This document shows positions 2,836 to 50,796 of a stretch of DNA of 57,245 nucleotides, one piece after another. A model generated the notes under the pieces. It was not told the origin of the DNA. It was given only the letters and a program-made list of their open reading frames with translations, and made no database searches. Positions within the stretch are counted from its first letter, which is position 1. Each line of letters begins with the position of its first letter. Made by a program: the position numbers and the translations under genes. The stretch spans positions 1 through 57,245 of the forward strand of contig CAMEET010000002.1 in the NCBI GenBank assembly GCA_945915085.1, in the 5' to 3' direction. Origin of the DNA: an uncultured Treponema sp. (GTDB lineage Bacteria; Spirochaetota; Spirochaetia; Treponematales; Treponemataceae).

Positions 2836-3279
2836 TTATTTTTTTAGAGAAACGTGCTTTCTAAACTGCTTTGTGCAGGGTAGGAGGCACGTTTTTTTTG
2901 TGGATTGGTGTGAAAAAAGGGGACAGACCTTGGTTTTTGACCTTGGGAAAACAGGGACAGACCTTGGTTTTTCAATGCAGTGAGTTATAGTATATTTTCC
3001 TTCGCTTCCCCATGCACCCCTATTGTGAGGAACAATCACCACACAACCAATGCGGCAAAGTGCGTGTGAAATATCGTCATTTCTGGCTGTTCCAGGAAAA
3101 CCGTGAAGCATAATCACGCAGGGATGAGGTTTTTCAATATTACTCGACGGCCACATAATTTCACCGTAGATATGAGAACCGTTGCTTACAAAATCAAGAG
3201 TTGTATAATCTGGCAAAGCTGTCGGATCCAGATTTTCATCATCTGCAAATAAATTTTCAAGTTTTAATCTACTCATCAA
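2836..3279 (-). pseudogene. Truncated alpha/beta hydrolase; 3' part replaced by two GGGACAGACC repeats
   Basis: N-terminal about 95 aa look like an alpha/beta hydrolase (PHPCVIMLHGFPGTARNDD...VVIVPHNRGAWGSEGKY); then the reading frame runs into repeat sequence (EKPRSVPVFPRSKTKVCPLFS). Confidence 0.7.
2850..2899 (+). terminator. Rho-independent terminator after phosphohexomutase
   Basis: aaacgtgc ... gcacgttt stem followed by T tract (aaacgtgctttctaaactgctttgtgcagggtaggaggcacgtttttttt). Confidence 0.7.
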
Positions 3280-4795: not shown

Positions 4796-5452
4796 TCAAG
4801 TTTTTGATTTTAGAGAACTTTTTTCTCCAATAAACTGAATCAACTGTACAAATACAATCAGAATAATCACAGTTGAAGTCATGAGCGGAGTGTTAAACCT
4901 CTGATATCCGTAAGTCAGAGCAATGTCACCAACTCCCCCACCACCAACAGCACCTGCCATTGCGGTTGCACCAAGTAATCCTACAGTTCCAGTAGTTATG
5001 CCAAGAACAATTCCACCTTTGGCTTCGGGCAATACAAATTTAAAAACAGTCTGTAAAGTGTTTGCTCCCATTGCCTGAGCTGCTTCGATTATTCCGCCGT
5101 CCACTTCCAGAAGTGCAGTTTCAATCAATCTTGCAAGATATGGTGCAATGTACGCAGTAAGAGGAACAAGAGCCACCGTAGAACCAACTCGGGTTCCTAC
5201 AATAGCTTTCGTCAAAGGCATAATGTACACAATCAAAATTATAAAAGGCACACTTCGAATAATATTTATAATCGTTCCAACAATTTTATTTACAACAAGA
5301 TTTTCATTAATTCCGCCTCTGCGCGTAACAAAAAGCAGAACTGCCAGCGGAAAAGCAATAATCAACCCGAAAATCAGGGACAGACCTAACATATAAACCG
5401 TTTGCCCGATTCCAAGCCAGATTTTTGCCGCACTTATTCCAAAAATTGTCAT
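4796..5452 (-). CDS. metI: Methionine-type ABC transporter permease MetI
   Basis: MetI-like membrane protein (NIIRSVPFIILIVYIMPLTKAIVGT, EAAQAMGANTLQTVFKFVLPEAKGGI, GAVGGGGVGDIA); ATG at 5452 with ggagg. Confidence 0.9.
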   Translation of the reverse strand: MTIFGISAAKIWLGIGQTVYMLGLSLIFGLIIAFPLAVLLFVTRRGGINENLVVNKIVGTIINIIRSVPFIILIVYIMPLTKAIVGTRVGSTVALVPLTAYIAPYLARLIETALLEVDGGIIEAAQAMGANTLQTVFKFVLPEAKGGIVLGITTGTVGLLGATAMAGAVGGGGVGDIALTYGYQRFNTPLMTSTVIILIVFVQLIQFIGEKSSLKSKT

Positions 5453-5505: not shown

Positions 5506-6528
5506 CTAAAAATTCACCTCGATTTTTGGAACATTATGTTCTTCAAAAAATCTATCAGCAGCTTCTAATTGAGGTCTGTCCCCTGTTATCTGCACAGTTT
5601 GAAAACCGACAACTTTTCCTTCAAGCTCAGTTACCGTTCCAAACAAAATAGAAATATTCACACCAGTTTCTTTGATTGCAAGCGACATAATCGGATCATC
5701 CGCATTTTTTCCATCAAAACGAAGCCGCACAACTTTTTGTGGTTCTTTATATTCCTGAATATATTTTTTAACACTTTCAGGCAGACGATCATTAATAACC
5801 GTTCTTATAAATCCTTTTGTAGTTTCAGTCTGAGGATTTCCAAACACATCAATTACGCTACCAGTTTCTACAAGCTGCCCTTTTTCCAGAACTGCAACTT
5901 TGTTACAAACCTGCTGAATTACATTCATCTGATGAGTAATCATCAAAACAGTAACATTCAGTTCTCGGTTAATTTTTTTGATAAGTTCCAGAATGGAATC
6001 TGTCGTCCTTGGATCGAGTGCCGATGTTGCTTCATCACAAAGAAGAATCTCAGGATTCAAAGCAAGAGCTCTGGCAATTCCAACTCTCTGTTTTTGACCA
6101 CCGCTTAACTGTCTCGGCAAAGCTCCAGACTTATCCTAAAGTTCAACAAATTTTAAAAGTTCATTCACTCTGGCAACAATTTTATCTTTTTTCCAATGAT
6201 TCAGTTCAAGCGGAACAGCAATATTTTGAAAAACAGTTTTGCTTTCCAGAAGATTGAAATGCTGAAAAATCATTCCAATGTTTTTTCGAAATTTACGGAG
6301 GTCTGTCCCCTTTAACTCAGAAACATTTCTGCCGTTTACCGTTACAGTTCCACCAGTTGGAATTTCCAAAGCATTTACCATTCTCACCAAAGTAGATTTA
6401 CCGGCACCAGAAAATCCGATTACACCAAAAATATCTCCTTTTTCAATGGTAAGTGAAACATCCTGTAATGCATGGACATCAGAATGTTTTGTTTTAAATG
6501 TTTTATAAATATTTTTGAATTCTATCAT
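5506..6528 (-). pseudogene. metN: Methionine-type ABC transporter ATPase MetN, interrupted by an in-frame TAG
   Basis: Two ORFs (6136-6528 and 5506-6120) read as one MetN in the same frame: ...[52 protein letters not shown]; Walker A GFSGAGKSTLVRMVN; C-terminal NIL-like domain. Confidence 0.85.
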
Positions 6529-8123: not shown

Positions 8124-8286
8124 GGTCTGTCCCCATTTTTTACAACCTTTCCTCAGTCACAAACTCAAAACTGCCCCCTATACATTGAAAATCAACTTTT
8201 TTTTCAATATAATAAAAATTGTTCTAGTAAAACGAGGTCTGTCCCCATTTAAATTTCCTTTATTCATTTAAATCAAGGTCTGTCCC
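8124..8286 (+). repeat. Three direct copies of AAGGTCTGTCCCCATT-type repeat
   Basis: ggtctgtccc at 8124, 8236 and 8277, all followed by ccatt(t). Confidence 0.9.
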
Positions 8287-20164: not shown

Positions 20165-20294
20165 GTTTAAACCCGGCAAGGTGTATGGAGCGCCACCGAA
20201 GGTGTTCTGGAGTGAAGCGAAGCGAAACGGAAGAATGAAGCGATAGCGGAAGCGCGGAACACACCGGTTTTGCGAAGCAAAATGCCTGAAAAAA
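20165..20294 (+). repeat. GC-rich hairpin-array repeat, copy B
   Basis: gtttaaacccggcaaggtgtatggag...ccggttttgcgaagcaaaatgcctgaaaaaa, same as copy A. Confidence 0.92.
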
Positions 20295-21654: not shown

Positions 21655-21709
21655 GGGACAGACCTTGTTTACAAACCCAAAAAACGTGCAAAAAAAACAG
21701 GGACAGACC
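21655..21709 (-). repeat. Two direct copies of AACAGGGACAGACCTTGTTT
   Basis: gggacagacc at 21655 and 21700, both followed by ttgttt. Confidence 0.95.
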
Positions 21710-25703: not shown

Positions 25704-25897
25704 ACTGTTTTTCAAGTGCAAATAAATTACGCTCTTCGGGTAAAAAACGAGGTCTGTCCCTGTGTCACTGGCTCGTGTAAACACGAAGTTTATTCCATGT
25801 GCGGGGTGCAAACTGGCTCATCAACGTTCGCTTGGTTTGCGTCCCTGGCTCGTATGAGTGTAGTTGATTTATTATAAACTTTTTTGGAGGTTATATT

Positions 25898-26770: not shown

Positions 26771-26860
26771 TACAACTTGAAAAAAGTGTGTTTGTAATAA
26801 TAATATTAAGGTCTGTCCCCTTTTTTACAAAAACGAGTTCTGTATTTTAAGGAAGGAAAA

Positions 26861-28084: not shown

Positions 28085-28162
28085 GTAAAACAAAAAACAA
28101 GGGTAAACAGGGGCAGACCTATTATTATTCTATTATTAGTTTCGCGATTTTAAAACAATTCA

Positions 28163-28211
28163 AATAAGGTCTGTCCCTGTTTTTACTGTAAAAACAGGGA
28201 CAGACCTTATT
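28163..28211. repeat. Perfect REP-like hairpin: head-to-head GGTCTGTCCC pair
   Basis: aataaggtctgtccctgttttta-ctg-taaaaacagggacagaccttatt, 23-bp perfect arms, 3-nt loop. Confidence 0.97.
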
Positions 28212-28284
28212 TTTTTTAAACTTTTTTTTCATTTTTACGTATAAAATCGCACAGTTAAGTCTATATTATATATAGGAGTAATTA

Positions 28285-29040
28285 ATGTCCCGAAAATCTA
28301 GAAAAAAGAGTGAATCTCAGATTTATCATGTAATTTTGCGCGGAAATAACAGACAGAACATCTTCTATAATGATGATGACCGTTATTTCATGCTAAACCG
28401 CATTCAAAAATACTCTGAACAGACTAATATTGAAGTATACGCCTACTGCCTTATGGATAATCATATCCATCTTCTCGTCGGAAAAGCAAATCCGAACCTC
28501 AGTAAGTTTGTTCAGAAGCTCGCAACTAGCTATGCCATGTATTTTAACAAAAAATACGACTGCTGCGGCCATCTTTTTCAAGGTAGATTTAAGAGTGAAC
28601 CTGTAGAAACTGAGGAATATTTCAAAACAGTATTCAGATACATTCTTCAGAATCCACAAAAGGCAAATATCTGTAAGTTTTTTAAGTACAAATGGAGCAG
28701 CTGTCAGTTTGCGATAAATGAAACGATGGATTCTACAGATTCTTTTGTCAGCATGGAGTATGTTTTTGAAATTTTTCAGGATAAAACTTCGCTTAAAAAG
28801 TTCCTGCATACAGAAAATTCAGATTTATGCATGGAATATGGAAATGTTCCTGTGATGAGTGATGCCAAATGTTATGAATTAATCAAAAAAAGAGTAAAAA
28901 TTAAAGAGCCATCTCAGATAAAAAAGCAGAGTCAGGAAAAAAAGAAAGAATTACTAATGTATCTGATACAGGAGGGGAGTAACATAACGCAAATTTCCAG
29001 GGTTACAGAGATTCCAAGACATATTTTGGCTAAATTGTAA
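28285..29040 (+). CDS. REP-associated tyrosine transposase (RAYT)-like / IS200 Y1 transposase family protein
   Basis: YHVILRGNNRQNIFYNDDDRYFML; HUH-type motif DNHIHLLVG; candidate catalytic Tyr in LATSYAMYFNKKYDCCGHLFQGRFKSEPV; C-terminal HTH-like tail. Confidence 0.88.
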   Translation: MSRKSRKKSESQIYHVILRGNNRQNIFYNDDDRYFMLNRIQKYSEQTNIEVYAYCLMDNHIHLLVGKANPNLSKFVQKLATSYAMYFNKKYDCCGHLFQGRFKSEPVETEEYFKTVFRYILQNPQKANICKFFKYKWSSCQFAINETMDSTDSFVSMEYVFEIFQDKTSLKKFLHTENSDLCMEYGNVPVMSDAKCYELIKKRVKIKEPSQIKKQSQEKKKELLMYLIQEGSNITQISRVTEIPRHILAKL

Positions 29041-29136
29041 TGGATTTCTCACTTATGTTTTTATCTTTTTAATCAATCCTGTAATAATTTTGTTATGAAA
29101 AACTTGGACAATAGGACTATTTTAAGGGTGAAATGA

Positions 29137-29207
29137 GGTCTGTCCCCTGTTTTACCTGTTTTTAATTGCCACAGTGTTCTTTGAGCTGATTAAACAAGGT
29201 CTGTCCC
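29137..29207 (+). repeat. Two direct GGTCTGTCCC copies downstream of the RAYT-like gene
   Basis: ggtctgtccc at 29137 and 29198. Confidence 0.93.
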
Positions 29208-29310
29208 TATTTTTTCAATATTTATTAAATTATCCCATTTTTACTAATGACAAGAAAAGCGAAACTATAGTATAATAAAAAGTAGTATTTAAAATCATAT
29301 GGAGGATTTT

Positions 29311-32127: not shown

Positions 32128-32178
32128 TAAAAAGAGGGACAGACCTTAATAAAACTGAAAGGTCTGTCCCTCTTTTTA
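32128..32178. repeat. REP-like hairpin: tail-to-tail GGGACAGACC/GGTCTGTCCC pair
   Basis: taaaaagagggacagacctt - 11 nt - aaggtctgtccctcttttta, 20-bp perfect arms. Confidence 0.96.
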
Positions 32179-50561: not shown

Positions 50562-50796
50562 GGTCTGTCCCTGTTTTAATTAATGTGAGTAAAAAAGGGA
50601 CAGACCTTGTTTCTTGTGTTTTTCCAAGGTCGTACCCCATTTTGATGCCCCACTTTAATGAAAACAAGGGACACACCTTGTTTCTTGTAAAACAGGTTAA
50701 ACCAGGGACACACCTCACGCGCAAATTAAATAAGGTCTGTCCCCTTTTTAACAAAGCAAGCTCTGTTCCCACTCTAATGAAAAACAGGGACACACC
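50562..50796. repeat. Cluster of seven GGTCTGTCCC-family units, including GGGACACACC variants
   Basis: Exact cores at 50562, 50597, 50734; gggacacacc at 50668, 50705, 50787; ggtcgtacccc at 50628. Confidence 0.9.

Follow-up and report, generated by a model that had tools for sequence, protein, structure and literature searches.

A RAYT-type Y1 transposase gene from an uncultured Treponema and its high-copy, lineage-specific repeat

The locus and its Y1 protein

The window, meaning the whole stretch of 57,245 nt that was analysed, contains a gene for a 251-residue Y1 transposase-like protein flanked by four exact copies of a dispersed 10-nt word. On the top strand the locus reads GGGACAGACC ... 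gene ... GGTCTGTCCC. The original prediction, made from the letters alone, had placed a Y1-like gene here with a degenerate upstream copy (ggggcagacc), an upstream hairpin of two copies and two direct copies downstream. All of these features were recovered (Table 1): the protein matches Pfam Y1_Tnp at 2.9e-18, and the inverted pair folds at −25.1 kcal/mol (z −10.9). The 21 exact copies counted by eye in the window are also all present, one of them starting at 5377 rather than 5378.

Table 1 Coordinates of the gene, its flanking repeats and the dispersed repeat cores in the window.
Feature	Position	Strand	Basis
RAYT/TnpA-Y1 gene, 251 aa	28285..29040	+	Profile match, invariant columns of relatives, AlphaFold, PDB match
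Degenerate repeat copy ggggcagacc	28110..28119	-	Sequence
Inverted repeat pair, one 24-bp hairpin; cores 28168-28177 (+) and 28197-28206 (-)	28161..28214		Sequence, folding
Upstream terminal repeat of RAYT unit	28189..28213	-	Homology with G198 and G152 units starts at 28190
Downstream repeat core, copy closest to gene 3' end	29137..29146	+	Exact match
Second downstream repeat core	29198..29207	+	Exact match
Dispersed repeat core	2920..2929	-	Exact match
Dispersed repeat core	2954..2963	-	Exact match
Dispersed repeat core	5377..5386	-	Exact match
Dispersed repeat core	5573..5582	+	Exact match
Dispersed repeat core	6300..6309	+	Exact match
Dispersed repeat core; repeat at corresponding place in G152	8124..8133	+	Exact match, G152 comparison
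Dispersed repeat core	8236..8245	+	Exact match
Dispersed repeat core	8277..8286	+	Exact match
Dispersed repeat core within ~160-bp stretch missing from G198 and G152	21655..21664	-	Match and comparison
Dispersed repeat core within the same ~160-bp stretch as 21655, missing from G198 and G152	21700..21709	-	Match and comparison
Dispersed repeat core, missing from corresponding interval in G198 and G152	25751..25760	+	Match and comparison
Dispersed repeat core; matching position and orientation in G198 and G152	26810..26819	+	Match and comparison
Dispersed repeat core, outward-facing pair with 32161	32136..32145	-	Exact match
Dispersed repeat core, outward-facing pair with 32136	32161..32170	+	Exact match
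Dispersed repeat core	50562..50571	+	Exact match
Dispersed repeat core	50597..50606	-	Exact match
Dispersed repeat core	50734..50743	+	Exact match

The protein carries an HuH motif (N59-H60-I-H62), a catalytic-type Y119 within YILQNP (which includes N123), an FQ motif and W137-S-S; N59, H60, Y119 and N123 are invariant across 34 relatives in the genus. A single HuH motif and a Y1 core with the Y---NP signature are the attributes of class 2 TnpA-Y1 proteins, the class of the RAYTs. The AlphaFold model (pLDDT 91) has as its top structural match in the PDB the E. coli TnpAREP with a REP hairpin (4ER8, E 1.4e-6, TM 0.72 over the PDB chain), followed by the IS608 and ISDra2 transposases, and the predicted fold is that of TnpAREP. 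A PDB search from the single sequence of the protein returned no match. Approximately 110 residues extend past the core and end in a C-terminal helix-turn-helix (approximately residues 217–250), to which Pfam HTH_7 has a weak match in five of the 34 relatives (best E 0.0019). REP_Tyr_transpos is the best NCBIfam model for the protein, with a score of 59.8 bits that lies below the curated cut-off of 80; each of the 34 relatives also has a match to this model, at E ≤ 0.01. The closest named relatives come from gut and faecal Treponema metagenome genomes, and the source is probably a host-associated, Treponema-like spirochete.

The gene is the only Y1_Tnp match in the source genome (2.37 Mb in 162 contigs, 90% complete). 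The description of the RAYT as single-copy therefore holds for this genome but not for the group, in which RAYT-bearing genomes have 1–5 RAYT-type genes and one recent duplication to a new site was found. RAYT-type proteins of the genus comprise approximately 250 residues and score 40–69 bits on Y1_Tnp, and the IS200 transposases of the genus form a separate class of approximately 150 residues that score up to 145 bits. An IS200/IS605 insertion sequence, with a TnpA of approximately 150 residues, a Y---Q motif and many near-identical copies, was rejected as an assignment for this single-copy gene with its 251 residues and YILQNP motif.

Elsewhere in the window, positions 20218–20286 (approximately 69 bp) have dozens of matches of approximately 80% identity in G152 and G198, many of them at contig ends, and may represent another dispersed family or a repeated domain.

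The dispersed repeat and the movement of the gene unit

The exact cores GGTCTGTCCC/GGGACAGACC in the window lie on both strands and compare with 0.01 copies expected from dinucleotide shuffles, none of 100 of which reached 21; the copy number is far above chance, as had been claimed. The whole genome holds 276 copies, 146 on the forward and 130 on the reverse strand; the reversed control word does not occur in it. A literature search returned no report of RAYTs or of the GGTCTGTCCC word in Treponema.

Consensus, clustering, folding and position were determined from 1.11 Mb (47%) of the genome, which yielded 113 exact and 63 one-mismatch copies. The consensus, AAANYRAGGTCTGTCCCYKTTTTTA, has a conserved stretch of approximately 24 nt with sharp edges. 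Ten of the 113 exact copies lie well inside robust open reading frames, compared with 78% of random positions (by crude ORF calls); high copy number and extragenic position are features of classical REPs as well. The repeats are clustered, with 60 neighbours at most 150 bp apart where approximately four are expected, and 79 of the 116 repeat loci are singletons, most loci of this genome being singletons with unique flanks. Every orientation is seen among these neighbours (33 direct, 27 inverted), and inverted doublets, the characteristic unit of REPINs, are not dominant among the 116 loci.

The repeat unit had been taken for a palindrome, which proved incorrect for the single unit; only pairs of units are palindromic. 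Folding of the 113 copies is no stronger than that of controls with swapped flanks (z −0.3 and 0.45 for the two strands), and mutual information across them gave no compensatory pairing or covariation between repeat-flanking positions. Fold energies, flank swaps and mutual information thus gave no sign of a palindromic stem-loop formed by a single repeat. The consensus also lacks a GT[AG]G foot (GTAG/GTGG). No enrichment was found in convergent intergenic regions (10 of 106 copies, against 12% of intergenic bases), nor any clear bias in orientation relative to genes or to GC skew (48:58, p 0.38), and roles of the repeat as a terminator, in gene orientation or on the replication strand were dropped for want of such bias.

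The repeats nearest to the gene mostly face outward. Of 34 RAYTs of the genus, 28 have their nearest upstream copy on the minus strand, and 28 of 30 have their nearest downstream copy on the plus strand, with a similar bias in 63 Firmicutes RAYTs. Homology to RAYTs at other loci in G198 and G152 starts at window position 28190, where the upstream repeat has its outer edge, and the DNA further out is unrelated. G161 (Treponema sp. Horse_feces303) has two copies of the RAYT unit with 99.0% identity across 1083 bp, each in the interior of a different contig, and their flanks are unrelated. The units end at the repeat on the gene-upstream side and approximately 85–90 bp past the downstream repeat on the other, and extra repeats occur just outside. 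At one of the two sites, the neighbouring gene and fusA are adjacent, with no unit, in G215 and G009, and the G161 insertion there is therefore derived; at the second, relatives are likewise without the unit, but the neighbouring gene differs too. The RAYT unit has thus itself moved, by a recent duplication to a new site in G161. One RAYT locus is common to G198 and G152 by descent. At the locus of the source genome, the next gene differs in G198 and G152, so that insertion is not distinguishable from rearrangement.

These observations bear on a classical REP/REPIN–RAYT system, in which GTAG hairpins would be moved by a domesticated, single-copy and vertically inherited RAYT. Such a system would fit the one gene and 276 repeats of the source genome, the fold nearest to TnpAREP and the RAYT locus that G198 and G152 retain by descent, but it is unlikely in view of the missing hairpin advantage and compensatory pairs, the consensus without GTAG or GTGG, the preponderance of singletons with pairs in every orientation, the helix-turn-helix on a protein of 250 residues and the recent duplication of the unit in a relative. 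The REP/RAYT system of the original prediction stands as a RAYT-type Y1 protein with a high-copy, mostly extragenic cognate repeat; its REP hairpin, GTAG foot and preferred inverted doublets do not.

For single repeats, the stretch syntenic with G198 and G152 shares the copy at 26810, and those at 21655, 21700 and 25751 are absent there, possibly through loss in these genomes; some repeats are old and inherited by descent. Among the alignable places of the source genome, G198 and G152, presence and absence were seen only for larger stretches, and no place gave a clean empty site of 24 bp for a single repeat, because intergenic DNA turns over too fast; the dispersal of single units is therefore deduced from their numbers.

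Some repeats are held in compound or tandem elements of approximately 117–143 bp (G152 L325:9843-10423, L313 and L322; G198 L288), which carry further palindromes GCACGTGCTG ... GAGTTTTTTAACGCTNCGCTAAAAAACTC and form a BIME-like mosaic family. Many copies in G152 and G198 lie within elements of this size, and repeats can also spread by recombination within larger compound elements. A wholly passive spread, whether by recombination or as part of intergenic elements of mosaic or compound build, with the RAYT a passenger that lands preferentially beside repeats, would account for these copies, for the local clustering and for the extra repeats directly outside the G161 unit. It is very unlikely, however, as the majority of loci in the source genome are solitary copies in unique surroundings, the variant of the word goes with the lineage of the RAYT, and Firmicutes RAYTs with a different word have the same outward-facing layout.

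Repeat abundance and word variants across the genus

The comparison set comprised 200 congeners and the source genome. At least 20 exact copies of GGTCTGTCCC were found in 17 genomes, all 17 of which have a long (approximately 250 residues) RAYT-type gene, cut by a contig end in one of them (G146). None of the 179 RAYT-less genomes reaches 20 copies (Fisher p 1.3e-20, a value of a kind that kinship inflates, with both the threshold and the division into RAYT-type and IS200-type chosen after the lists were seen). RAYT-less congeners mostly have 0–6 copies, the highest counts being 19 in G006 and 16 in G106, and genomes with IS200-type genes only have background numbers. Two outcomes had been named as contrary to a RAYT system, a repeat equally abundant without the gene and a gene falling among multi-copy IS200 elements; instead, RAYT-less congeners are without the repeat in number, and the IS200 class stands apart from the gene and is without the repeat.

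Since the count is inflated by relatedness, independent contrasts were taken from a fusA tree of 27 genomes, on which RAYT presence changes state approximately seven times. In five well-supported contrasts, repeat abundance follows the gene in four to five and runs against it in none (sign test 0.0625, the lowest value reachable with five pairs). Copy numbers in close pairs on this tree are 95 in G030 versus 6 in G001, 38 in G162 versus 5 in G155, 26 in G033 versus 1 in G132, and 115 in G157 versus 3 in G192; in one close group, the source genome has 276 and G152 has 528, versus 0 in G124. In G056, from another family of the same order, there are 28 Y1_Tnp matches in a 2.3-Mb genome and only 22 copies of GGTCTGTCCC; this Y1 expansion is of a different kind.

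Around the RAYT genes of relatives, the flanking words are variants of GGTCTGTCCC. One RAYT clade goes with GGTCTGTCCC itself, and the other, clade B, with ACTCTGTCCC, GCTCTGTCCC, TCCCTGTCCC or AGTCTGTCCC, each RAYT having its own flanking repeat dispersed in the genome, as is characteristic of RAYTs. On this basis, a RAYT-bearing genome with few copies of GGTCTGTCCC should have many of the word in its own flanks, a prediction tested on 55 genomes. RCTCTGTCCC reaches 232 copies in G158, 165 in G159, 78 in G009 and 36 in G160, and 0–13 in RAYT-less congeners. TCCCTGTCCC reaches 42 copies in G079, 44 in G160 and 46 in G145, the three genomes with this word in RAYT flanks, and 0–14 elsewhere in the genus; G160 and G145 are RAYT-bearing genomes with few GGTCTGTCCC. 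The reversed control for TCCCTGTCCC is imperfect, since TCCCTGTCCCT reads the same when reversed. The contrast of RGGCTGTCCC against background was too weak for it to be accepted as a lineage word, and G104 is therefore left unexplained; neither of the RAYT-bearing genomes G104 and G065 has a strongly enriched word among those tested, a set that does not include the flank word of G065. There are two exceptions to the pairing of word and gene, both in incomplete MAGs: G158 (65% complete) has 58 copies of GGTCTGTCCC and only clade-B RAYTs were found, and G157 (80% complete) has 45 copies of RCTCTGTCCC and no clade-B RAYT was found.

On a tree of 57 RAYT proteins, the word changes 13 times, compared with 32.9 times with shuffled labels, and none of 200 shuffles gave a number as low. 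Firmicutes relatives, for which flanks only were compared, have GAACCGTCCC or RACCTGTCCC around the RAYT in the same outward-facing layout. Across the Spirochaetes and Firmicutes flanks, the word keeps a nearly constant outer GTCCC, and its variation lies in the inner half. In two relatives the word is a true palindrome with the centre CTG: the RAYT of L056 (G048:C1:2110639-2113968) is flanked by perfect palindromes GGTGACTGTCACC, and that of L038 goes with GGTGCCTGGCACC. In G043, the copies of GCTCTGTCCC show a strong concentration near the RAYT genes C64:68949 (C64:54662-74048) and C44:5136, as if repeats land near the gene.

A host-serving signal (a DNA-uptake word, a terminator or a chromosome-organisation motif) that the RAYT merely uses or adjoins is strongly disfavoured: hundreds of intergenic 10-mer copies and terminator-capable inverted pairs do recall DUS/USS words, but such a signal predicts neither the rarity of the word in RAYT-less congeners nor its change with RAYT lineage, and the repeat has no convergent-region enrichment and no clear gene-orientation or GC-skew bias.

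Proposed activity and relation to known systems

We favour, with a probability of approximately 0.75, a TIRYT-type RAYT that has the word as its target, uses Tyr119 to nick single-stranded DNA, and spreads repeats and occasionally its own gene. The locus would then be a Y1 HuH transposase-like gene between outward-facing cognate repeats. Its product, with the helix-turn-helix at the C-terminus, would recognise the repeat of approximately 24 nt by sequence, nick it in single-stranded form with Tyr119 at the HuH site, and copy or move repeats, occasionally even the complete gene unit, into new positions between genes. Such dispersal would account for a copy number in the hundreds, for its dependence on the gene and for word variants that are specific to lineages. 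The abundance of the repeat, its co-occurrence with the gene, the co-variation of word and protein, and the relocation of the unit with one edge at the repeat are direct observations. Binding, nicking, a single-stranded intermediate and a role for the helix-turn-helix are suggested by the predicted fold and by analogy with TnpAREP and IS608. We infer that the protein causes the dispersal of single repeats, and likewise which of its parts recognises the 5' half of the word, the variable one.

More tentatively, and with somewhat less than even odds, the helix-turn-helix-bearing Y1 class as a whole (TIRYT/RAYT group 1, in Spirochaetes and Firmicutes) may read a two-part word rather than hairpins, with a near-constant outer GTCCC and a co-evolving inner half, and may scatter hundreds of solitary copies of approximately 24 bp while still moving its own gene.

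The closest described relatives are TIRYTs and TIRtrons (subclass 2.1), not classical REPtrons. TIRYTs are described, in the portion of Di Nocera et al. 2013 (PMC3733652) drawn on here, as RAYT-like genes flanked by inverted repeats with the common motif GGGGWSAS; some of these TIR families are dispersed in the genome and moderately abundant, with no obvious correlation between gene and repeat. The present locus likewise has a Y1 gene within inverted repeats. In many relatives the outward-facing ends are GGGGACAG, which contain GGGGWSAS, and the upstream end in the source genome, AGGGACAG, is one letter off this motif. Compared with that portion, which mentions no spirochete TIRYT, the hosts here are spirochetes, copy numbers reach 528 and the correlation of gene and repeat is near-perfect.

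Most TIRYTs belong to TnpA-Y1 subclass 2.1 (Quentin et al. 2018, PMC6006769), which corresponds, by the citation in that paper, to the RAYT group 1 that Bertels et al. 2017 defined; its members have an HTH-like C-terminus, and automatic and manual searches gave no REP-like sequences for them. The protein resembles this subclass in its length (median 238 residues there), NH-x-H, FQ, SS and Y---NP motifs and C-terminal HTH-like domain. Its Y motif is YILQNP, however, rather than YIELNP or Y[IV]HLNP, and the assignment therefore rests on the other features; by length, HTH, FQ and SS, the protein is most probably a TIRYT.

Subclass 2.1/group 1 is the largest RAYT-like group after IS200, and its role was open because it was described as lacking repeats. 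The present data give a subclass 2.1-like RAYT a cognate, high-copy and lineage-specific repeat, and its gene unit moves. A high-copy, gene-dependent repeat in this subclass will probably be unexpected to the specialist; the frame is already known. The paired variation of protein and word provides a panel for testing directly how a Y1 enzyme recognises sequence, and sister species that differ in having the gene are natural comparisons for rates of repeat gain and loss.

With E. coli TnpAREP (4ER8), the system shares the HuH/Y1 core fold and the presence, next to the gene, of a cognate repeat that is also scattered outside genes. However, TnpAREP has 165 residues, no HTH extension and a hairpin repeat with a GTAG foot, whereas the protein here has 251 residues with an HTH and an unstructured repeat. 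The Y1 catalytic fold and a mobile unit are also features of IS200/IS605 elements (IS608 and ISDra2 TnpA), although the IS200-type proteins of the genus are shorter, score far higher on Y1_Tnp and have no repeat. The locus behaves like a RAYT with its repeat, and the repeat is not a REP.
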